From NCBI GenBank assembly GCA_017440045.1, contig JAFSIA010000027.1, positions 42,152 to 106,151 of the forward strand: a DNA stretch of 64,000 nt. The letters run 5' to 3'. The DNA comes from Lachnospiraceae bacterium (GTDB lineage Bacteria; Bacillota; Clostridia; Lachnospirales; Lachnospiraceae). The notes under the pieces were generated by a model, which saw only the letters and a program-made list of their open reading frames with translations, had not been told where the DNA came from and searched no databases. Shown one piece after another: positions 27,796-44,667 of the stretch (its first letter is position 1; each line of letters starts with the position of its first letter). Position numbers and translations under genes: made by a program.

Positions 27796-29763
27796 GTGAA
27801 AAAGCAGCAATTTGGTGGTTTTGGATTCTATATGATCGTCCTTATTGTGATGGGATTTATATGGTATTTCATTAGCACTCTTGGAACAAATGAAACAGAT
27901 TATAATTACAGTGACTTTTTAGGGGATCTTAGTGAAGGTCAGGTTACAGAAGTAGTTATCAATCAGAATGAGCAGGTACCTACAGGATACCTGGAAGTAA
28001 AAATAGAGGGAAAGAGAGCGGCAGTTACTGTATATGTTACAGATGTAAACGCAGCAGTTGATGCTATGATAGCGGCGGAGTTTACAGAGTACTCTATAGA
28101 GGATGTTGATGGAGAGAGCGTATTTTTAAATACAATTCTTCCTCTGGGCATATCGATAATGGCCATTATCTTTATATTCTTATTATTTAGTGGTCAAAGC
28201 GCAGGCGGCAGCAGCGGAAAGATGATGAATTTTGGAAAGAGCCGCGCTAAGCTTATGAACGAAAGCAACAAGAAGGTTACATTCGATGAAGTTGCCGGAC
28301 TTGCAGAAGAAAAGGATGAGCTTGAAGAAATTGTTGATTTCCTTAAAAGCCCAAAGAAGTATATTGAGGTTGGAGCCAGAATACCAAAGGGTGTCATCTT
28401 AGTAGGACCTCCGGGAACAGGTAAAACACTTCTTGCCAAGGCTGTAGCCGGCGAGGCAGGTGTGCCATTCTTCAGTATTTCAGGTTCAGATTTCGTTGAG
28501 ATGTTTGTAGGTGTAGGTGCTTCCAGAGTAAGAGATTTGTTTGAGGAAGCAAAGAAGAATGCACCTTGTATAGTGTTTATAGATGAGATTGACGCAGTGG
28601 CAAGAAGAAGAGGTACTGGTATGGGTGGTGGCCATGATGAGCGTGAGCAGACACTCAACCAGATGCTTGTTGAGATGGATGGTTTTGGTGTAAATGAGGG
28701 AATCATCGTAATGGCGGCAACAAACCGTGTAGATATCCTTGACCCGGCTATCCTTCGTCCGGGACGTTTCGATAGAAAGGTTTATGTGGGAAGACCGGAT
28801 GTAAAGGGCAGAAAGGAAATCCTTGAAGTACATGTAAAGAATAAGCCATTAGCTGATGATGTCGATTTAGACAATGTGGCACAGACTACAGCAGGATTTA
28901 CAGGAGCCGACTTAGAAAATCTTGTAAACGAAGCAGCAATCAATGCTGCAAAGACCAATAGAAAGTATATCACACAGGCTGATATCAACCGTTCATTTGT
29001 AAAGGTTGGTATCGGTACAGAAAAGAAGAGTAAAGTTATCTCAGAGAAAGAGAAGAGAATTACAGCCTACCATGAAGCAGGTCACGCAATACTCTTCCAT
29101 GCATTGCCAGACGTTGGACCTGTTCATACAGTTTCGATTATTCCTACAGGAAATGGTGCAGCAGGTTACACAATGCCATTGCCTGAGCGTGATGATATGT
29201 TTAACACTAAGGGTAAGATGCTTCAGAGCATTATGGTGTCATTAGGTGGTAGAATCGCTGAAGAATTAATATTTGATGATATAACAACAGGTGCATCTCA
29301 GGATATTAAGCAGGCAACAAGCTATGCTAAGTCTATGGTCACAAAGTTTGGTATGTCAGACAGCCTTGGACTTATCTGCTACGGAGATGAGGATGAGGAA
29401 GTGTTTATCGGTAGAGATTTAGCCCATGCAAGAGGCTACGCAGATACAACAGCGGCTAAGATTGATGAGGAAGTTAAGCGTATTGTTGACGAATGCTACG
29501 TAAAGGCTAAAGAAATAATTATTGAGCATAAGGATGCCTTAGAGAGATGTGCAGAATATCTTCTTAAGAAAGAAAAGATTGGACAGAAGGAATTTGAGGC
29601 ACTTTACAATAATGAGCCTATTGAAGAAGAAATTAAAGAAGAGGTTAAAGAAGAGGCTGAGACAGTAATGGATGCAGTGGAAAAGGCAGCAGCTGAATCT
29701 ATGGCTGAGATAAGTGAGGAAGTCAACGAAGAAACAGGTGTAGAAGAAGACGTAGAGGAATAA
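27796..29763 (+). CDS. ftsH: ATP-dependent zinc metalloprotease FtsH
   Basis: A membrane-bound AAA protease for quality control of membrane and regulatory proteins. It has 655 residues from GTG 27796 with SD AAGGAGG. Two membrane helices (about 9-27 and 115-133) flank an external domain. The AAA module has Walker A GPPGTGKT near 205, Walker [12 protein letters not shown], and the SRH region. The zinc site HEAGH is near 426. The last 50 residues are very Glu-rich, a common but variable tail. It ends the tilS-hpt-ftsH operon. Confidence 0.97.
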
Positions 29764-32480: not shown

Positions 32481-32521
32481 AAAAGAAATAGTCAGGTTCT
32501 TAGAACCTGACTATTTCTTTT
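32481..32521. terminator. Bidirectional terminator
   Basis: AAAAGAAATAGTCAGGTTC (32481-32499), loop TTA, exact complement (32503-32521). Flanked by A-run and T-run, it can stop the tRNA transcript (+) and the convergent HD-GYP gene (-). Confidence 0.95.
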
Positions 32522-33513
32522 TAATTATTCTTCAAGGTATATCCATTTCGTAGCATTTCTAGGAATGCATCTAAAATCTTAGGGTCAAATTGTTTGCCTC
32601 TGCCTTTTTCTAGCTCTGCGATAACTTCCTCATTGGACAGAGCTTTTCTGTAGGCTCGGTCAGAGGTCATAGCATCATATGCATCGGCGATAGCGATAAT
32701 TCTGGCGTTAAGAGGAATTTCTTCGCCCTTTAGGCCGGAGACATAGCCACCACCATCGAAGCGCTCGTGATGGTATAGTGCTCCTGATTGCAAATCGGGA
32801 ATAGTGTTAATATTTCTAAGAATCTCAAACCCAATAGCTGGATGCTTTTTAATAACTGCAAACTCATCATCATCTAACCTGGCAGGTTTGTTAAGAATGG
32901 CATCGGGAATTCCAATTTTTCCAATATCATGTAGCAATGCCATAAAATCAAGATTCCTAAGCTCATCTTCACTCATACCCATATGTGAGGCAATAGCCAC
33001 AGAGCAACGGGCAACTCTAATGGAATGTCCGCTGGTGTATTGGTCCTTGGCCTCTATTGTATTAGCAATAGCCATAATTGCATTAAGAGTAACAAGCTCA
33101 ACCTGTCTTGTTTTTTCAGCAAGTCTTGCTTCTAAATCATTTCTCAAATCTGTAAGCTCTAGGATACGACTGACACGACTTCGCATAACCTGAGGGACAA
33201 ATGGCTTTGCAATAAAGTCATCAGCACCATCATTTAAACATTGAACCTCTGTTTCGGGAGCTGAATCAGCAGTGAGAAAGATAATAGGAATACTTTTTAA
33301 TTCCTTTTTCTCACGTATACGTTTCATAGTCTCTCTGCCGTCCATCTCAGGCATGCTAATATCAAGCAATATAAGGTCAGTTGAATTTTCGGCTAAGAAA
33401 TCAAGTGCTTCAAACCCAGATTTAACCAGTGTTACATCATAGTCAGCTGAAAGAGCATGCTTAGCCAAAGTTAAGTTCATTTGGTTATCATCTACAATCA
33501 AAATGTGTTTCAT
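32521..33513 (-). CDS. Response regulator with HD-GYP c-di-GMP phosphodiesterase domain
   Basis: The protein has 330 residues. Residues 1-120 are a receiver domain with phospho-acceptor D51 (LLDISMPEMDG); a helical linker (120-140) leads to an HD-GYP domain with H195-D196 in LLHDIGKIGIPD and the motif HHERFDGGGY at 248-257. The proline of the classical GYP is a valine (GYV), a tolerated variant. Expected output: hydrolysis of c-di-GMP to pGpG/GMP. The receiver and linker closely resemble those of the REC-GGDEF protein at 38380-39750 (same GADDFI-KPFVP and RVSRILE phrases). It is divergent from the BMP/histidine-kinase operon, with a promoter 50 bases upstream of its start. Confidence 0.93.
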   Translation of the reverse strand: MKHILIVDDNQMNLTLAKHALSADYDVTLVKSGFEALDFLAENSTDLILLDISMPEMDGRETMKRIREKKELKSIPIIFLTADSAPETEVQCLNDGADDFIAKPFVPQVMRSRVSRILELTDLRNDLEARLAEKTRQVELVTLNAIMAIANTIEAKDQYTSGHSIRVARCSVAIASHMGMSEDELRNLDFMALLHDIGKIGIPDAILNKPARLDDDEFAVIKKHPAIGFEILRNINTIPDLQSGALYHHERFDGGGYVSGLKGEEIPLNARIIAIADAYDAMTSDRAYRKALSNEEVIAELEKGRGKQFDPKILDAFLEMLRNGYTLKNN

Positions 33514-33617: not shown

Positions 33618-33646
33618 TTGCGCTTATAAGGGTTTTGAGATATGAT
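33618..33646 (+). promoter_or_regulatory. Promoter of the BMP-histidine kinase operon
   Basis: TTGCGC (33618-33623), 17 bases, TATGAT (33641-33646). Only 29 bases separate its -35 from the opposing -35, so one bound factor could control both directions. The -10 overlaps the ATG at 33642, ruling that codon out as the start of the BMP gene. Confidence 0.65.
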
Positions 33647-33686
33647 AATGATAGTATGTATTTGTGGAAAAATGGGGGAAATACAC

Positions 33687-34781
33687 ATGAAAAAGATTTT
33701 TATTATAACAGGAATTACGTTCATTGCTATCATAATAGGAATATTTTTTATAAATGTCTATGATGCTGACAAAAAAGATACAGAGAAAACAACCAGAGTA
33801 GGTCTCATTTTGAATGGAACAGTAAGTGACCGTAATTGGAGTCAGTCTCACTATGAGGGATTGAAGAAAACAGCTACTCAGCTAAATATAGAAATAGTTT
33901 ATCAGGAAAAAGCAAGCGCAGATAATATTGAAGAAAAAATAGACAGCCTTGTAGAGGACGGATGTGAAATCATAATTGCTAATTCTTTTGAGTTTGGTGA
34001 CGCTGTTCAAGCTGCGGCAGAAAAATATCCGGAGGTATATTTTTACCATGCCACAGGTGTAGGAGTAGGAAAAAATATGTCAAGTTATTTTGGCCGAATG
34101 TATCAGATTAGATACTTGTGCGGAATTGTTGCAGGACTTCAGACAGAGACAAATGAAATAGGATATGTAGCTGCATTTCCTATATCAGAGGTTAACAGAG
34201 GTATAAATGCTTTTGCCTTGGGGGTAAGAAGCGTTAATCCAGAAGCTACAGTATATGTAAGCTGGACAAATTCATGGACAGATGATGAGTCAGCTGCATT
34301 GGCAACAGAACAGCTACTGGATAAATACAATATAGACATAATATCTATGCATACGGATTCTTTAAAGCCATTAGCCTTGGCTGAGGAGAGAAATGTGATG
34401 GCTATAGGCTACAATATCGACAACAGTGAGCATTATCCTAATACATTTCTTACAGCAGCAGTTTGGGACTGGGAAAAGTTCTATACACCAAACATATTGC
34501 AGTGTATACAGGGGAAGTTTGACGGAAATCATTACTGGGAAGGCATAGAAACAGGGATAGTGTCAATTGCGCCATTTTCTGACAAAGTAAAAGATGGTGT
34601 TGCCAAGGTTGTAGAAAAAGAAATTGAGAGAATGAGTAGTGGCACATTTGATGTTTTTTATGGTCCCCTTGTTGATAATGAAGGAAACATACGTGTTTCT
34701 GAAGGTGAAAGCTTGACAGACAACGCTATGCTTAATGAATTTGATTGGTATGTAGAAGGTGTGGTAATAGATGAAGAATAA
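33687..34781 (+). CDS. Membrane-anchored BMP-family ligand-binding protein 1
   Basis: The protein has 364 residues from ATG 33687 behind GGGGGAA. Residues 4-25 are a membrane helix without a lipobox cysteine, so it is anchored as a signal-anchor protein with the rest outside. The mature part is a BMP/PnrA-type periplasmic-binding fold ([63 protein letters not shown]). Family members bind nucleosides or autoinducer-like ligands for ABC importers, but no permease or ATPase lies nearby. The gene overlaps the next BMP gene by 11 bases. I infer a sensory rather than transport role. Confidence 0.85.
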   Translation: MKKIFIITGITFIAIIIGIFFINVYDADKKDTEKTTRVGLILNGTVSDRNWSQSHYEGLKKTATQLNIEIVYQEKASADNIEEKIDSLVEDGCEIIIANSFEFGDAVQAAAEKYPEVYFYHATGVGVGKNMSSYFGRMYQIRYLCGIVAGLQTETNEIGYVAAFPISEVNRGINAFALGVRSVNPEATVYVSWTNSWTDDESAALATEQLLDKYNIDIISMHTDSLKPLALAEERNVMAIGYNIDNSEHYPNTFLTAAVWDWEKFYTPNILQCIQGKFDGNHYWEGIETGIVSIAPFSDKVKDGVAKVVEKEIERMSSGTFDVFYGPLVDNEGNIRVSEGESLTDNAMLNEFDWYVEGVVIDEE

Positions 34782-35871
34782 AAAGAGAACGCAGGCGCTA
34801 CTATTAGGATTAGTTGCGGTGATAGTTATAATTATTATTGTGATTATAGCGCTGCTAGGACAAGAAAATGAGGATGCGCCCAAGGTAGGACTGGTTATCA
34901 CAGGCTCCATTGATGACGATGGCTGGAACGGTGTGCATTATCAAGGTGTATTATATGCCTGTGATAAGATTGGTACAGAATTACTTGTTAAAGAAAATGT
35001 GTCGGAGGAAGGAGCAGAGTGTCAAAAGGCTATCGAAGAGCTGGTAGAGGAAGGAGCTTCCATGATTATATTATCCAGCTATGGATATCCGACTATTGCA
35101 AAGGAAACCATAGACCGATATCCTGATGTGGCATTTTACGGAATATCTGCAGAGTATTATGCTGATAATATGACATCATATTTTGGAAGGATGTATCAGG
35201 CAAGATATTTGGCAGGTGTGCTGGCAGGCTTGAAGACTGAGAATGACAATATCGGTTATGTTGCAGCTATGGCAAATAATGAGGTGAACAGAGGGATTAA
35301 TGCATTTACTATGGGGGTTAAAAGCGTAAATCCTGAAGCTTCGGTTAATGTGATTTGGACAGGCTCCTGGGATGATAAGGAAAAGGAAGTGTCGGCGACA
35401 AATACATTAATTAAGGAAAAAAATGTAGATGTGATTACCTACCATCAGAATCAGCCAAATGTAGCCATAACGGCAGATGCAGCCGGAGTATATACCATAG
35501 GGTATAATGAGCAGGCGGAAGGATTGTCTGAAAAGTATCTTACAGCAGCAGTTTGGGATTGGAAGAAGCTGTATTATCAGATTGTGCGGGAATTCGTGCA
35601 GGGAGAGGCCAATAATGTAAAGCGACACTGGTTTGGAATTGATACTGAGGTGGTGAAACTGTCAGAGTATTCATCTTATGTTACTGAGGAGGAAAAGCAG
35701 GCTGTAGCGCAGGCTATGGAGAATGTGTTTGCAGGAATGGATATCTTCTCGGGAAAGATATATGATAATAATGGAGAGCTTCGCTGTGATGATGGCGAAT
35801 CTATTAGCGACGATATACTGTTGGAAAAAATGGATTGGTATGTTGATGGGGTGGTAATATATGGGAAATAG
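34771..35871 (+). CDS. Membrane-anchored BMP-family ligand-binding protein 2
   Basis: A paralogue of the previous gene, 366 residues. Its membrane helix is at about 8-29, again with no lipobox. The BMP fold phrases are kept: [72 protein letters not shown], and the same ending DWYVDGVVI. It overlaps both neighbours by 11 bases. Two different ligand-binding paralogues in front of one kinase suggest a heterodimer, or two ligands read by one kinase. Confidence 0.85.
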
Positions 35872-38368
35872 ACTAAGACTAAAAAATATAAAAAATAAAG
35901 TCTACGTTATACTTATAAGTTTTTCGGTATTGACTGTTGTGTGTCTGCTTATGTGGATGAGAATACAAAAAATTCTTGATGAACAGCTGGAGGAGCAGGT
36001 TTCAGAACAGGGAAGAATGATTTCAAAAGTGGTGGACAATAGCTTTGAGGATGAGCTTCGACTCTTAAGTGAGTTATCTGTATTTGTTAATATTAAAGAT
36101 GGTACGCTGGACCGAGAATTTGCAGAGGAAGCTGGTGTATCATACGGTGTTTTGAAAATAAATGGCGAAGCGTGCTTTGGAAATAAGCTTGATTTTGAGC
36201 AGTATGATGGAATTTTTGAGGCTATACATGGAAATGCGTCAGTAAGCTGTAGTCAAGATAAGACAGTCTTATTTACAGTTCCCGTATATAATGGCGATAA
36301 TGTAAAGTATGTATTGTACAAATTATATGACAGTGAGGTTCTTGCAAAAACAATCGATTTGACCTGCTATGATGGTCAGGGAGACTGTGTTGTTACAGAT
36401 ATAGATGGAAACATCATAATAAAAAACGAAAATAGCAGGCTGAGTGAAAGCTTCTTTTTAGATTCAGATAACACAGAGGCTTACAGCATAATAAGTGACA
36501 AGATGAATATAAGTGCTATTGCGGCAGCTCGTATGGAAAGCGACTTTGGAGATAATATTTTGTTTGCTTCAGAGACCAGCTATCCGGGCTTGTATATTAT
36601 GGGATATGTCCCTGTGGAAACAGTTATCGGGGAGACATCACTCATTATTCCGCTTGTATTATGGTGCTTTGGCTTATTGTGGTTGCTGCTTATTATCGTT
36701 ACACTTTATTTGATGGTTGCAGAAAAGAAAGCAAAAGAAATCGATGAATTTCTTCAGGCAAAGCTTATCGCAGAAAAGGCAAATCAGGCGAAAAGTGAGT
36801 TTCTTGCAAATATGTCTCATGAAATCAGGACACCAATCAATGCTGTTATCGGTATGAATGAGATAATCTTAAGAGAATGCAGTGATAAAAATATATTGGA
36901 GTATGCCACAAATATTGAAAGCGCCAGCAAAAATCTGTTGGTTATCATCAATGATATATTGGATTTTTCTAAGATTGAGTCTGGAAAAATGGAGATGTTT
37001 GAAAGTAATTATAAGCTTGGCGAAATCTTAAATGATGTTTCATCTATGGTGGAGGTTAAGGCTCAAAAGAAGAGTTTACAATATGAGACAATAGTAGATG
37101 AAAATATTCCAAATGAGCTGTTTGGCGATGATACAAAGATAAAGCAGATTATATTAAATCTCTTGAATAACGCAGTAAAATATACCCAAAGCGGCTCAGT
37201 AAAGCTGAAGGTTAGTGGTGATTTAGATGAGTCAGAAGAAGCAGTAACCCTCAGAGTGGCAGTTGAGGATACGGGAATTGGTATAGAAAAAGAGAAGATT
37301 TCAACATTATTTGAAGGCTTCCAGCGTCTGGATTTGGAAAAGAACAGAAATATAGAAGGTACAGGTTTAGGTTTGGCTATTACAAAGAATCTGGTAGATA
37401 TGCTTAATGGTGAAATAGATGTTGACAGCACATATGGGGAAGGGTCTATATTCTCATTTTGTATTAAGCAAAAGATAGTGAATCCGGAACCAATTGGAAA
37501 TTTTGATGATTATCGAAAGGCTAAAAATATTGACCATAAATACGAACAGAGATTTACTGCACCGGATGCGTCAGTTTTAGTTGTAGATGATAATCAGATG
37601 AATTTGCTGGTTGTAAGAAAATTGCTTGAAAAAACAAAGGTACAGCTCGCGGAAGCTATGAGCGGTGATGCGGCATTGGAGCTTATGAGACAAAATGCTT
37701 ATGATGTTATATTACTCGATCATATGATGCCGGGTATGGACGGAATAGAGACACTTAAGCGCGCAAAAAAGATGGAGGATAATAAGAGCATAAATGCTCC
37801 GATTATTGCTTTGACAGCAAATGCAATCTCAGGAGTGAGAGAGATGTATCTGTCAGAGGGCTTTGATGATTATATTAGTAAGCCTATCGATGGAAAAGTA
37901 TTGGAGGAGCGACTTGTAAAATATCTGCCAACAGAGAAGGTAAGTATTTTCAAGGAGGAAATAGTCGAAAAGGCTGTGGTAGAAGAGGAAACAGGCCTGA
38001 TTGATTATGAGCGAGGCATCAGATATTGTGGAGATATTGAAGATGTGTATTTAGAGATTATGGAGATATTCTGTGAAGCACATGATGATATGTATAACAC
38101 ATTAGAGCAGTTTTTTAATAATCAGGATTGGAATAATTACACCATCAGTATCCACTCATTAAAATCCAACTCACTTAATATAGGCGGAAAGATTCTGTCA
38201 GATAAATGTCTTGAGCTGGAACGTGCCGGAAAGAAAATACGAATGGGTGAGGATGTGCCTGAACAGGTTGAATATATAGAGAAAAATCATCCTGAGACAA
38301 TGAAACTCTATGAGGAAACGATAAAAGTGGCTACAGATTATCTTAAAAGTAAAAAGGACAATGGTTAG
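35861..38368 (+). CDS. Hybrid sensor histidine kinase with REC and HPt domains
   Basis: The protein has 835 residues. A membrane helix (13-34), an external sensor region of about 225 residues, and a second helix (about 261-286) precede HisKA with H320 (NMSHEIRTP), a HATPase with N-, G1- and G2-boxes ([16 protein letters not shown]), a receiver with D620 ([11 protein letters not shown]) and a C-terminal HPt domain with H765 ([12 protein letters not shown]). This makes a complete internal phosphorelay able to pass phosphate to separate regulators. It overlaps the upstream BMP gene by 11 bases and is followed after 11 bases by the REC-GGDEF gene, so that regulator and the divergent REC-HD-GYP are the likely targets. 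Confidence 0.93.
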
Positions 38369-38379
38369 GAGGATAAAAA

Positions 38380-39750
38380 ATGAAGCGTCTTCTTGTGGTA
38401 GATGATAATGATATGAATTGCATAATGGCGAAGCGAGCACTGAGCGATAAATATGAGGTGTTTATAGCAAACTCCGGAAAAGAGGCTTTAACTTTTTTGG
38501 AAAACGAAACGGTAGATTTGATATTGATGGATATAGAGATGCCGGAGATGAATGGTAAAGAAGCGGCCAGTAAGATAAAGCAGAATGAAGCATGGTCAAA
38601 GATTCCTATTATATTTTTAACAGCAGATTCAGACCCTAAAACAGAGGCGGAATGCTTAAGCTGGGGAGCTGATGATTTTATCACAAAGCCATTTGTACCT
38701 GTAGTTATGAATACCCGTGTCAGCAGAATTTTAGAGGTTCATGACTTAAGAAAAGACTTGGAAACTCAGTTGGAAAAAAAGACACATCAGATGGAAAAGG
38801 CGACACAGAAGTCTTTGACTGATGCATTAACAGGATTGCGCAATCGTGACTATCTTGAAAAGAAGCTGACGGAATTATTAAGTGAAGGTGTTAAGGGCAC
38901 ATTCTTTATGATTGACCTTGACAATTTTAAGCAGATTAACGATACATATGGACATATAGTGGGAGATAAGACATTGCAGCATTTTGCCAATGTACTTAGA
39001 GATTATGCAAGGGAAGGAGACATTGTATGTCGACTTGCAGGTGATGAATTTGTAACCTTCTATCCGGAACTGACAGAGCGAAAAATTGCGGCAAAGAAGG
39101 CAGAGGGCATAATCAAATCCTTCGGAGATAAAATGACCTCATTGGGCTTTGGTGGAATAGTGTCAGTTTCTATTGGTATTATAGCGGCTCAGGGAGGAGA
39201 GGAGTTTAAAACTCTTTATAACAAGGCAGATAAGTCACTTTATTACGTAAAGAACAACGGAAAGAATGCATATCATTTTTATGATGAGCATAATAAGAAA
39301 ATAGAGGAAATCAGCACAGTTGTAGACTTGGAATATGTCAGCAATATGATGGAGCAGGGATTGACTGTGAAAAAGGGACCTTTCAACGTAGCTTATGATG
39401 AGTTTAAGAAGGTATACGATTTCGTATCCAGAAATGTAGCCAGAAAAAAACAGAAGGTTCAGGTTGTACTTTTTACTATTCATATGACAAATAAGAAGGC
39501 GGAGATTACGCTGGAAGAGGTTATGGACCGTTGGGAAGAGGCGCTTGTAAATTCTCTTCGTACTGTAGATACAGGAACAAGATACAGCAGTAGCCAGTAT
39601 ATGATGATTTTCTTAGACGTAGATATGGATAACGGAAGAATAGTTGCAGAGAGAGTAATACAGAGATTTCTTTCAAGAAATGAGGATATTAAAGACGATA
39701 TGAATGTTACTTATGATATTCGTACTATGGAGCCGGAAGATGTAGTTTAA
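38380..39750 (+). CDS. Response regulator with active-type GGDEF and second degenerate cyclase-like domain
   Basis: The protein has 456 residues. A receiver with D51 (LMDIEMPEMNG), a coiled linker, then a GGDEF domain with AGDEF at 220-224, a variant that is usually active, and an RxxD inhibitory site at 211-214 (REGD) exactly five residues before it. Residues about 355-450 look like a second nucleotidyl-cyclase fold in which the signature is eroded to SSSQY (403-407) after RY. Expected output: c-di-GMP synthesis with product inhibition. The receiver is closely related to that of the HD-GYP protein across the divergent promoter. It belongs to the BMP/kinase operon. Confidence 0.9.
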   Translation: MKRLLVVDDNDMNCIMAKRALSDKYEVFIANSGKEALTFLENETVDLILMDIEMPEMNGKEAASKIKQNEAWSKIPIIFLTADSDPKTEAECLSWGADDFITKPFVPVVMNTRVSRILEVHDLRKDLETQLEKKTHQMEKATQKSLTDALTGLRNRDYLEKKLTELLSEGVKGTFFMIDLDNFKQINDTYGHIVGDKTLQHFANVLRDYAREGDIVCRLAGDEFVTFYPELTERKIAAKKAEGIIKSFGDKMTSLGFGGIVSVSIGIIAAQGGEEFKTLYNKADKSLYYVKNNGKNAYHFYDEHNKKIEEISTVVDLEYVSNMMEQGLTVKKGPFNVAYDEFKKVYDFVSRNVARKKQKVQVVLFTIHMTNKKAEITLEEVMDRWEEALVNSLRTVDTGTRYSSSQYMMIFLDVDMDNGRIVAERVIQRFLSRNEDIKDDMNVTYDIRTMEPEDVV

Positions 39751-41516: not shown

Positions 41517-41533
41517 ATATTTACAAATTTATT

Positions 41534-41565
41534 AAGGGAATCTCAACAAAAATTGAGGTTCCCTT
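41534..41565 (+). terminator. Hairpin after the two-component pair
   Basis: AAGGGAATCTCAA (41534-41546), loop CAAAAA, TTGAGGTTCCCTT (41553-41565), one T-G pair. The T-run is poor (GAGTTGCTTTT), so read-through into the ABC gene 91 bases later is possible. Confidence 0.6.
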
Positions 41566-41655
41566 GAGTTGCTTTTGAGATATACTATTTACTATGATTG
41601 TGCAGAACTATTCTGTACATAATATAATTATAAAATCGAGAGGAGTAACAGGGAA

Positions 41656-44600
41656 ATGCTTGAATTAAAAAACGTTAAAAAAGATTACCCTGCTGGTGAT
41701 GGAGTTGTTAATGCCCTCAAAGGAATCGACCTTCAGTTTAGAACCAATGAATTTGTATCTATCTTAGGTCCTTCCGGATGTGGTAAGACAACCCTGCTTA
41801 ATATCATCGGTGGATTAGATCATTATACATCAGGTGATTTGATTATAAATGGTACATCTACAAAGGATTATAAGGATAGAGACTGGGATACATACAGAAA
41901 TCATTCTATAGGTTTCGTATTCCAGAGCTATAATCTTATTCCTCATCAGACTGTTTTGCAGAATGTTGAGTTGGCATTGACACTTTCAGGTGTGTCTAAG
42001 TCAGAGAGAAGAGAGAGAGCAAAGGCTGCATTGGAGAAGGTTGGTCTTGGTGACCAGCTTAAGAAAAAGCCTAGTCAGATGTCTGGTGGACAGATGCAGA
42101 GAGTTGCCATAGCAAGAGCTCTTGTAAATAATCCTGATATTATTCTTGCAGATGAGCCAACAGGTGCTCTTGACACAGAGACCAGTGTTCAGGTTATGGA
42201 GATTTTAAAGGAGATATCTAAGGATAAGCTCATTATCATGGTAACTCATAACCCGGATTTGGCAGAGCAGTATTCTACAAGAATTATCCGCATGCTTGAC
42301 GGTGAGATAAAGAATGACACACGTCCATTAGATGAGAAGGAATGTCAGGAGGAGAGAGCGGCTGAGAAGGCTCTTCAGGCAGAGAAAGGCAAGGAAAAGA
42401 AGCCTTCTATGTCACTTTGGACATCATTCTCATTATCGCTTAAAAACCTTATTAGCAAAAAGAGCAGAACAATGCTCACATCATTTGCAGGAAGTATTGG
42501 TATTATTGGTATAGCCCTTATTTTTTCAGTATCTCAGGGTCTTACCACATATATTGATATGATTCAGGAAAATACATTGTCTTCATACCCATTAACTATC
42601 GAGAAGACGCATGTTGACTTAGGGACTCTTATGGAGACATTTATGGGCTTGGCTGAAAATGACAATGACCATGACAAGGATGCAGTGTATTCAAAGCCTG
42701 TTGTACAGGAGATTTTAAATGCTCTTAACAATATGGAGACAACTGAGAATGACTTAAAGTCATTTAAAGAGTTTATTGAGGCAGAGAGAGCTGACGAAAA
42801 CGGAAAGTTAAATCTTCATGAGGCTATAAATGGTGTACAGTACACATATGACTTGAATTTATTAGTGTACACAGAGAATATAGATGGCGATATTATCCCA
42901 TCAGATGCTCAGGCCCTTATGCAGGAGCTGCTTATGGAATACATGGGTATGGATATGTCGGCTATGACTCAGATGGGAGCTATGGGAAATTCTCCTATGT
43001 CCTCAATGATGACAAGTAATCAGAATATGATGAAGCTCTGGCAGGAGATGCTTCCGGGAGATAACGGAAAGCCAATTAGTGAGCTTTTAGAGAAGCAGTA
43101 TGATTTACTATATGGTACATGGCCAACTGAGTATAATGAAGTTGTAATAGTAGTTGATGAAAATAATGAGATTGACGATATGACATTATACGCTCTCGGT
43201 TTGACATCAAAGGAAACTATTGACGAGATTATGAGTGCTGCTATGAACGGCTCTGATGTAGTTGCCGATACAAGAAATTGGTCTTATGAAGAAATCTGTG
43301 ATATGGAGTTTAAGGTAATACTTAATTCTGACTGCTTTACATTAGACCCTACTACGGGCTTGTATACAGACCTTAGAGAGAGCGATGCAGGTATAAAGTA
43401 TCTTTATGATAACGGCATCGACCTTAAGGTTTCTGGTGTTATCAGATTGAATGAAGATGCTGAGATAGGTATGCTTACAGGTAACATTGGTTACACAAGC
43501 TTACTTACAGAGTATGTAGTTGAAAAAGCAAAGGATGTTGATTCTATTAAGGCTCAGTTAGACAATCCTGAGATTGATATTTTCACAAATCTTCCATTTG
43601 CAGAAAATACAGGAAACCTTAGTGATGAGCAGAAGGAAACTGAATTCCGCAATTACATTGGAAAGCTTGATATGGCATCAAAGGCTCAGGCATATATAGC
43701 TATAAAGTGTGTTCCTTCAGAGGATGAGCTTAATGCTATGGTTGAGCAGGCTATGACAGGCATGGATAGAGCTACTATAGAAGCCACAATGATTCAGGCA
43801 CTGACACAGCAGATGGGTATGGCACAGGAGCAGATTCAGGCATATCTTACTGCTATGAGCGATGAGGAATTAACTGCTGCATATGCTATGATGGTAAGAG
43901 AGCAGGCTAAGATGCAGTATGCAGCTAAGGTAATGGAGTCTCTTGCAGGTATGACACCTGATCAGCTTATAGCTGCTCTTGATATGGAGCTTCCAAACTA
44001 TACAACTGAGCAGTGCGCATTGTATTATGACGAAGTACTTGAGTTTTCAGAGTCTTCATATGAGGCTAACTTAGTACAGCTGGGCTATGTAGATTTAGAA
44101 AGTCCTGCATCAATCAATCTTTATGCGTCAACTTTTGAAAATAAGGATGTAATTGAGGATGCAATTAAAGAATACAACAAGGGCGTTGATGATATTTCGC
44201 AGATTAAGTATACAGATTATGTTGGTCTTATGATGTCATCAATAAGCTCAATTATAAATACAATTACTTATGTACTTATAGCATTCGTAGCTATTTCACT
44301 TGTAGTATCTTCTATTATGATTGGTGTTATCACACTGATTTCAGTACAGGAGAGAACAAAGGAGATTGGTATCTTGCGAGCTATGGGTGCGTCAAAGAGA
44401 GATGTATCTAGTATGTTTAATGCTGAGACTGTAATGATTGGATTTGCGGCGGGTGCATTAGGTGTAATTGTAACATACCTGTTATGTATTCCTATTAATA
44501 TGGTAATCCACAGTGCTACAGGCATTATGGCATTAAATGCATATTTACCAATACCGGTAGCATTGATTCTCATTCTTATCAGCGTACTTCTCACAGTATT

Positions 44601-44667
44601 CTCAGGAGTAATTCCTTCAAGAAGTGCTGCGAAGAAGGACCCAGTGGTTGCACTCAGAACAGAATAA
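41656..44667 (+). CDS. ABC transporter with fused ATPase and FtsX/MacB-type permease
   Basis: The protein has 1003 residues. The N-terminal 225 residues are a LolD/MacB-type ATPase: Walker A GPSGCGKT (38-45), signature MSGGQMQR near 141, Walker B IILADEPTG. A charged linker leads to the first membrane helix near 270-292, a very large extracytoplasmic region (about 295-860), and three C-terminal helices (about 865-1000) of the FtsX/MacB class. Members act by mechanotransmission rather than classic transport (toxin extrusion, peptide resistance, lipoprotein handling). Residues about 419-465 of the external domain hold 14 methionines. The two-component pair immediately upstream suggests regulation by it. 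Confidence 0.9.
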   Translation: MLELKNVKKDYPAGDGVVNALKGIDLQFRTNEFVSILGPSGCGKTTLLNIIGGLDHYTSGDLIINGTSTKDYKDRDWDTYRNHSIGFVFQSYNLIPHQTVLQNVELALTLSGVSKSERRERAKAALEKVGLGDQLKKKPSQMSGGQMQRVAIARALVNNPDIILADEPTGALDTETSVQVMEILKEISKDKLIIMVTHNPDLAEQYSTRIIRMLDGEIKNDTRPLDEKECQEERAAEKALQAEKGKEKKPSMSLWTSFSLSLKNLISKKSRTMLTSFAGSIGIIGIALIFSVSQGLTTYIDMIQENTLSSYPLTIEKTHVDLGTLMETFMGLAENDNDHDKDAVYSKPVVQEILNALNNMETTENDLKSFKEFIEAERADENGKLNLHEAINGVQYTYDLNLLVYTENIDGDIIPSDAQALMQELLMEYMGMDMSAMTQMGAMGNSPMSSMMTSNQNMMKLWQEMLPGDNGKPISELLEKQYDLLYGTWPTEYNEVVIVVDENNEIDDMTLYALGLTSKETIDEIMSAAMNGSDVVADTRNWSYEEICDMEFKVILNSDCFTLDPTTGLYTDLRESDAGIKYLYDNGIDLKVSGVIRLNEDAEIGMLTGNIGYTSLLTEYVVEKAKDVDSIKAQLDNPEIDIFTNLPFAENTGNLSDEQKETEFRNYIGKLDMASKAQAYIAIKCVPSEDELNAMVEQAMTGMDRATIEATMIQALTQQMGMAQEQIQAYLTAMSDEELTAAYAMMVREQAKMQYAAKVMESLAGMTPDQLIAALDMELPNYTTEQCALYYDEVLEFSESSYEANLVQLGYVDLESPASINLYASTFENKDVIEDAIKEYNKGVDDISQIKYTDYVGLMMSSISSIINTITYVLIAFVAISLVVSSIMIGVITLISVQERTKEIGILRAMGASKRDVSSMFNAETVMIGFAAGALGVIVTYLLCIPINMVIHSATGIMALNAYLPIPVALILILISVLLTVFSGVIPSRSAAKKDPVVALRTE

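Follow-up and report, generated by a model that had tools for sequence, protein, structure and literature searches.

Two Bmp genes overlapping a kinase gene

Why should two genes for Bmp-type binding proteins overlap each other and the gene for a sensor kinase, with no importer gene beside them? The question is raised by a 64,000-nucleotide stretch of DNA from Lachnospiraceae bacterium (assembly GCA_017440045.1, contig JAFSIA010000027.1, positions 42,152 to 106,151), here called the window, where BMP1 (33687..34781), BMP2 (34771..35871) and a hybrid histidine kinase gene (35861..38368) follow one another on the forward strand. An earlier note on this DNA had described two 11-base overlaps, which lie at 34771..34781 (BMP1/BMP2) and 35861..35871 (BMP2/kinase), a plain N-terminal membrane helix without a lipobox in both binding proteins, and an external kinase region of about 225 residues. 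All of this holds, the outer region coming to about 223 residues (35–257, limits set in this analysis). BMP1 and BMP2 each consist of a single N-terminal hydrophobic membrane helix, a short stalk and a Bmp domain (Pfam PF02608; 3.1e-55 and 9.5e-54; 187.7 and 182.9 bits against a curated cut-off of 24.1). The longest reading frame of BMP1 opens at 33642, but a start at 33687 is likelier because GGGGGA precedes it and relatives have the same MKK start.

We propose, with a probability of roughly 0.6, that the three genes encode a purine sensor resembling LuxP–LuxQ, which would feed a phosphorelay leading often to enzymes of cyclic di-GMP (c-di-GMP) turnover. BMP1 and BMP2 would be membrane-tethered receptors rather than importer parts, each of which would enclose a small extracellular ligand similar to a purine. 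Like LuxP on LuxQ, they would dock on the dCache ectodomain of their co-encoded kinase. The latter would relay phosphate from His to Asp to His through its HisKA, REC and Hpt domains and onward to the free receivers of a neighbouring diguanylate cyclase and an HD-GYP protein, and outside purines would thereby set c-di-GMP. Docking, ligand, direction of the response and partner regulators are what we infer; the coupling of receptors to kinase is very likely.

Conservation of the gene order

With BMP2 as query, a search of 397 genomes of the family (the source genome included) found Bmp matches in 72 of them, 96 in total at E ≤ 1e-40. The genes around each match were read, assigned to types by BLAST against control proteins and those of the window, and counted by hand. 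Neighbouring methyl-accepting chemotaxis proteins (MCPs) were called by a sequence pattern, with which Pfam agreed in three of three proteins tested, and one match (L142, genome G169), whose Bmp frame the gene caller had missed, was counted from the BMP2 search and its importer neighbours. A kinase with this ectodomain adjoins 36 of the matches, importer genes 37, an MCP 19, and none of these the remaining 4. The 36 kinase-linked genes are spread over 20 of the 397 genomes, of which 15 have the tandem pair, 4 have a single BMP with a kinase, and one (G135) has BMP1 and BMP2 at two separate loci with a kinase each; six loci have one kinase-linked BMP only. The BMP1–BMP2–kinase order recurs in many genomes and is therefore more than chance, and the possibility raised by the earlier note that it might be unique to one strain can be set aside. 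Further kinase-linked relatives are L034–L036, from assemblies titled Lachnospiraceae (L036 is cut before BMP1), and L037, from an assembly titled Oscillospiraceae, whose closely similar module points to either transfer or a wrong label. In G168, an SBP_bac_3 gene stands where BMP1 would be expected, overlapping the upstream end of BMP2, and the contig ends there (L080:8677-10681).

No gene in window positions 28001–45000 matches the permeases of Bmp importers, and the sole ABC gene there encodes an ABC_tran-FtsX protein (41656–44667), five genes away. The lipoprotein, adjacent ATPase and BPD_transp_2 permeases of a Bmp-type ABC importer are absent from the window locus. In the source genome, a 74%-complete assembly, BMP1 and BMP2 are the only Bmp genes found, and the only two BPD_transp_2 matches are on another contig, adjoining a Peripla_BP_4 binding protein. 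None of the 27 kinase-linked stretches (the window included) has a match to the two Bmp-importer permeases, and three of three importer loci used as positive controls gave permease matches. ABC ATPase genes occur in 3 of the 27 stretches, namely the window, L034 (two genes, four genes away) and L077.

The suggestion of a receptor module without a transporter is thus upheld for the kinase-linked stretches. Permeases beside homologues, which the earlier note had named as a possible refutation, did not turn up in these stretches. More distant homologues do adjoin importer genes (37 of 96 matches), and the claim is therefore limited to the BMP1 and BMP2 clades, not extended to Bmp proteins at large. 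Outside the family, an ABC ATPase gene is a neighbour in 28 of 29 class-level loci read (from 41 matches listed, 12 without a locus being left out) and in 18 of 19 order-level loci; this kinase was seen beside Bmp in none of these loci, the flanks of which are short.

Membrane anchors and phylogeny

Lipoboxes, called by a sequence pattern of our own, are found in 0 of 43 kinase-linked Bmp proteins compared with 76 of 82 others (18 of 19 MCP-linked, 32 of 35 importer-linked and 26 of 28 at class level). The stalk, measured between the 19-residue segment of highest hydrophobicity and the first strand, has 15 residues in 20 of 20 BMP1 proteins and 9–17 in BMP2 (n = 22, one cut row left out). Lipoprotein stalks, counted from the lipobox Cys and only roughly comparable, range over 7–67 residues (n = 78, four left out), and those at class level over 7–30, overlapping the BMP values. 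In a tree of 93 of the 135 rows, built by a quick method and carrying a long-branch warning that includes L080_BMP2 and AtzT, BMP1 forms one clade (20 rows, support 98) and BMP2 another (23 rows, support 100); the MCP-linked rows form one group (14 of 19 rows, support 94) and importer types are mixed. The tree gives no clear sister relation of BMP1 and BMP2. Both clades cover much the same genomes, which suggests an old pair.

Predicted ligand pocket

The closest solved structures to the BMPs, by sequence and by fold, are AtzT and 3s99 (BMP1 model against AtzT: TM 0.87/0.95, 1.5 Å). In AtzT, guanine is stacked between Tyr45 and Trp194 and contacted by Ser97, the Phe98 backbone, Glu165, Asn218 and Asn220; the affinities given are 0.11 µM for guanine and 2.5 µM for adenine, and 3s99 is described as modelled with adenine (PMC6834077). 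The pocket positions are W51, S100, F101, E168, W197, H222 and D224 in BMP1 and W52, S103, Y104, E171, W200, H225 and N227 in BMP2. The full set is W,S,F,E,G,W,H,D in BMP1 and W,S,Y,E,G,W,H,N in BMP2; 3s99, in alignments read by eye, has the same letters as BMP1. Both window proteins have the stacking aromatics and the Ser, Glu and Asn/Asp contacts of purine-base Bmp proteins, and of the 43 rows linked to a kinase, 42 have the Ser, 41 the Glu and all 43 the Trp194 equivalent. A purine base is the likely class of ligand. The earlier note had thought of nucleosides, which is probably not quite right, as the closest solved relatives hold free purine bases and most of their pocket residues are retained.

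The position of AtzT Asn220 is occupied by Asp in 17 of 20 BMP1 and by Asn in 19 of 23 BMP2 proteins. Asp is usual in the relatives (30 of 35 importer-linked, 28 of 28 class-level and 19 of 19 MCP-linked rows), and the Asn of the BMP2 type is therefore a departure. Among 18 loci with both BMPs, the BMP1/BMP2 combination is Asp/Asn in 16, Asn/Asn in one (L085) and Asn/Asp in one (L090); the two unlinked genes of G135 (L088, L077) show the same swap as L090. BMP1 has Asp as in the adenine-bound 3s99 and BMP2 has Asn as in the guanine-binding AtzT; the two might bind different purines and sit together on one kinase, and the cell would then read the kind or ratio of outside purines and set c-di-GMP. 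We regard such a comparator as unlikely. The reversed pair and the G135 swap would fit a need for one Asp and one Asn, and L085 counts against it. A BMP1–BMP2 heteromer, as the earlier note had envisaged, is plausible and would agree with the tandem arrangement and with the Asp/Asn contrast; the six single-BMP loci nevertheless indicate that pairing is not obligatory. Interface residues were also sought in the alignment and given up, as only four positions consistently tell BMP1 from BMP2 and three are common to both but rare in relatives, too few to support any interface.

In G291, a 758-residue protein with domains of the xanthine dehydrogenase type adjoins a related Bmp (L154:3552-5828, and L155; Pfam was run on L154). 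As a pointer to a purine ligand it is a weak hint.

Kinase ectodomain and phosphorelay

Between its two transmembrane helices the kinase carries the ectodomain (35963..36631), followed by HisKA, HATPase, REC and Hpt domains in that Pfam order, the Hpt match being borderline (24.6 bits against a cut-off of 24.6). The phosphorelay motifs SHEIR (with His320), NNAVKY, DTGIG, GTGLGL, ILLDHM and HSLKS are kept. A model of the ectodomain based on 25 rows (mean pLDDT 84.6, pTM 0.70) shows two tandem alpha/beta modules resembling Cache domains, together with a long helix. The best 50 Foldseek rows are largely dCache receptors (probability 1.00, TM by query 0.34–0.50), and LuxQ is not among these matches. 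Pfam dCache_1 is matched by 9 of the 25 members (best 3.3e-05) and weakly in the window (0.026), so the class assignment rests on the fold; as modelled, the outer domain is a dCache domain of the LuxQ class. With binding-protein genes coupled to a kinase whose outer domain has a predicted Cache fold, the locus agrees with a binding-protein-dependent sensor kinase of the LuxPQ type.

Possible output

The gene for a REC-GGDEF response regulator with the motif AGDEF (38380..39750, forward strand) starts 11 bp past the kinase stop, and one for a REC-HD-GYP-type regulator (32521..33513, reverse strand; HDIGK, HHERFDGGGYV) is divergent from BMP1. A GGDEF or HD-GYP gene is found within two called genes of the unit at 14 of 27 kinase-linked loci compared with 0 of 58 other Bmp loci, and any two-component gene at 22 of 27 compared with 0 of 58. 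These counts do not test independent events, because the loci are relatives of one another and were searched for with proteins of the window itself. A 59th locus, L142, has no called Bmp gene and stands outside the 58. A c-di-GMP output is plausible. The C-terminal ~150 residues of the REC-GGDEF protein (window 39277-39750) have no Pfam match and are 43–62% identical in the closest relatives.

Evidence against and alternative explanations

Several observations weigh against the proposed purine sensor. In a genus sample of eight genomes the pair occurs in three, those being the source genome, G680 and G684; of the seven genus-mates, four have no Bmp match, one has a lone MCP-linked Bmp, and BMP1 of G684 is interrupted. 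(It lies in two open pieces, L189:8786-9916, through assembly error or decay.) A Cys occurs within or behind the hydrophobic stretch in three of the 43 kinase-linked rows, although none has a lipobox, and in L077 an ABC_membrane-ABC_tran gene directly adjoins BMP2. His replaces AtzT Asn218 in 43 of 43 kinase-linked rows, as in 3s99, and the specificity may differ from that of AtzT. Within two genes of the unit, a c-di-GMP gene is lacking at 13 of the 27 kinase-linked loci, and the control locus L097 includes a GGDEF gene at a distance of three genes. Finally, dCache domains often bind ligands themselves.

That BMP1 and BMP2 are ordinary importer-binding proteins placed beside a kinase by happenstance is highly improbable and was rejected on neighbours, anchors and tree. 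The name and fold of the family are those of importer subunits, but the kinase coupling is conserved, the clades are separate, the 27 stretches hold no importer permease, and relatives outside the family do adjoin an ABC ATPase gene. We also consider it unlikely that the ectodomain senses a ligand of its own, with the BMPs only modulating it or scavenging for an unlinked importer. dCache domains can bind ligands directly, purines among them (PMC11245519), and the importer may be in the missing quarter of the assembly. Against this, the gene overlap, lost lipobox and constant stalk are ill-suited to an importer subunit. The W[FYW] pair, given as part of known dCache motifs (PMC11245519), occurs in 3 of 25 ectodomains and is missing from 22, and the window ectodomain has no Trp. 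The purine motif of dCache_1PU (Y-R-W-F-D/N, distal module) was found in 0 of 25 by a loose regular expression of our own without a positive control, and purine sensing through this published motif was dropped as a candidate.

Somewhat more room is left for receptor–kinase coupling with a ligand other than a purine base, such as a nucleoside, vitamin B6 or another flat heterocycle, which we hold to be a tentative alternative. Bmp relatives in the PDB contain bound nucleosides or riboflavin, and the sole NCBIfam match of the BMPs is a putative B6-binding Bmp protein; this match, however, has a cut-off of 400 bits and reaches 65.2 and 60.2, and the BMP pocket positions are as in AtzT and 3s99, a set that is missing in five more distant importer-type rows.

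Relation to known systems

LuxP of the Vibrio AI-2 receptor is a single soluble periplasmic protein of a family other than Bmp, XylFII and CuaD also belong to other binding-protein families, and TorT–TorS combines a binding protein with a hybrid kinase and phosphorelay. To our knowledge, AtzT and 3s99 have no link to a kinase. The window module is like LuxP–LuxQ, by class, in joining a binding protein to a double-PDC-type kinase ectodomain; it differs in its two membrane-anchored Bmp paralogues and the Hpt domain on its kinase, and the LuxQ model matches the window kinase in the core only, under its cut-off. In LuxP–LuxQ the binding protein passes its ligand state to the double-PDC ectodomain (PMC8534201). 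XylFII–LytS and CuaD–CuaS of Clostridia likewise pair a binding protein with a kinase, but have sugar ligands and one binding protein per kinase; the solved XylFII–LytS complex contains two of each protein, CuaD is a predicted lipoprotein, and CuaR acts on gene expression (PMC10384115). TorS has an all-helical sensor domain (PMC8534201), with one binding protein and trimethylamine N-oxide as ligand, and its model scores 356.6 bits with the window kinase core, under a cut-off of 676.5. AtzT and 3s99 share the fold and purine-base pocket of the BMPs, but AtzT is thought to serve uptake (PMC6834077), unlike the role proposed here for the kinase-linked proteins.

Neighbouring genes and a chemoreceptor-linked branch

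Beyond the REC-GGDEF gene follow a response regulator, a second kinase and the ABC_tran-FtsX gene, a set not seen behind REC-GGDEF in L033-L036, L083, L084 or L188. A terminator-like stem lies after the second kinase (window 41532-41567), and the BMP1 transcript might therefore read through this OmpR-type pair. Promoter-like sites number 47 compared with 32.2 ± 5.3 in shuffles; they are consensus matches only and were not used as support.

Within this family, Bmp lipoproteins of a separate branch adjoin an MCP of ~570 residues, with MCPsignal and sCache_3_3 domains in four of four by Pfam (L137, L138, L143-L146, L148-L153, L156, L157, L178, L179, L076, L190). No importer permeases were seen near these genes in the stretches read, and L076 has three consecutive Bmp genes. 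Perhaps this branch serves binding-protein-dependent chemotaxis to purines.

Implications

About 10 worked examples of binding-protein input to sensor kinases are described in PMC9602780, according to which 13 of 22 binding-protein families were at that time known to reach receptors, and a survey of gut receptors lists such input among the possible explanations for the small number of kinase ligands found (PMC12415202). Among the open-access papers listed in our literature searches (at most 15 per search, frequently a small part of those with the terms), none described Bmp–kinase or Bmp–chemoreceptor pairs, and no mention of Bmp was found in PMC11237719. If our reading is true, the module would be a new, Bmp-type class of kinase input, distinguished by a pair of tethered receptors, a stalk that stays constant and a probable output through c-di-GMP; its proposed ligand class could be tested directly. 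More broadly, a Bmp gene annotated as part of an importer may encode a receptor: 55 of the 96 close matches in the family sample adjoin a kinase or chemoreceptor gene.

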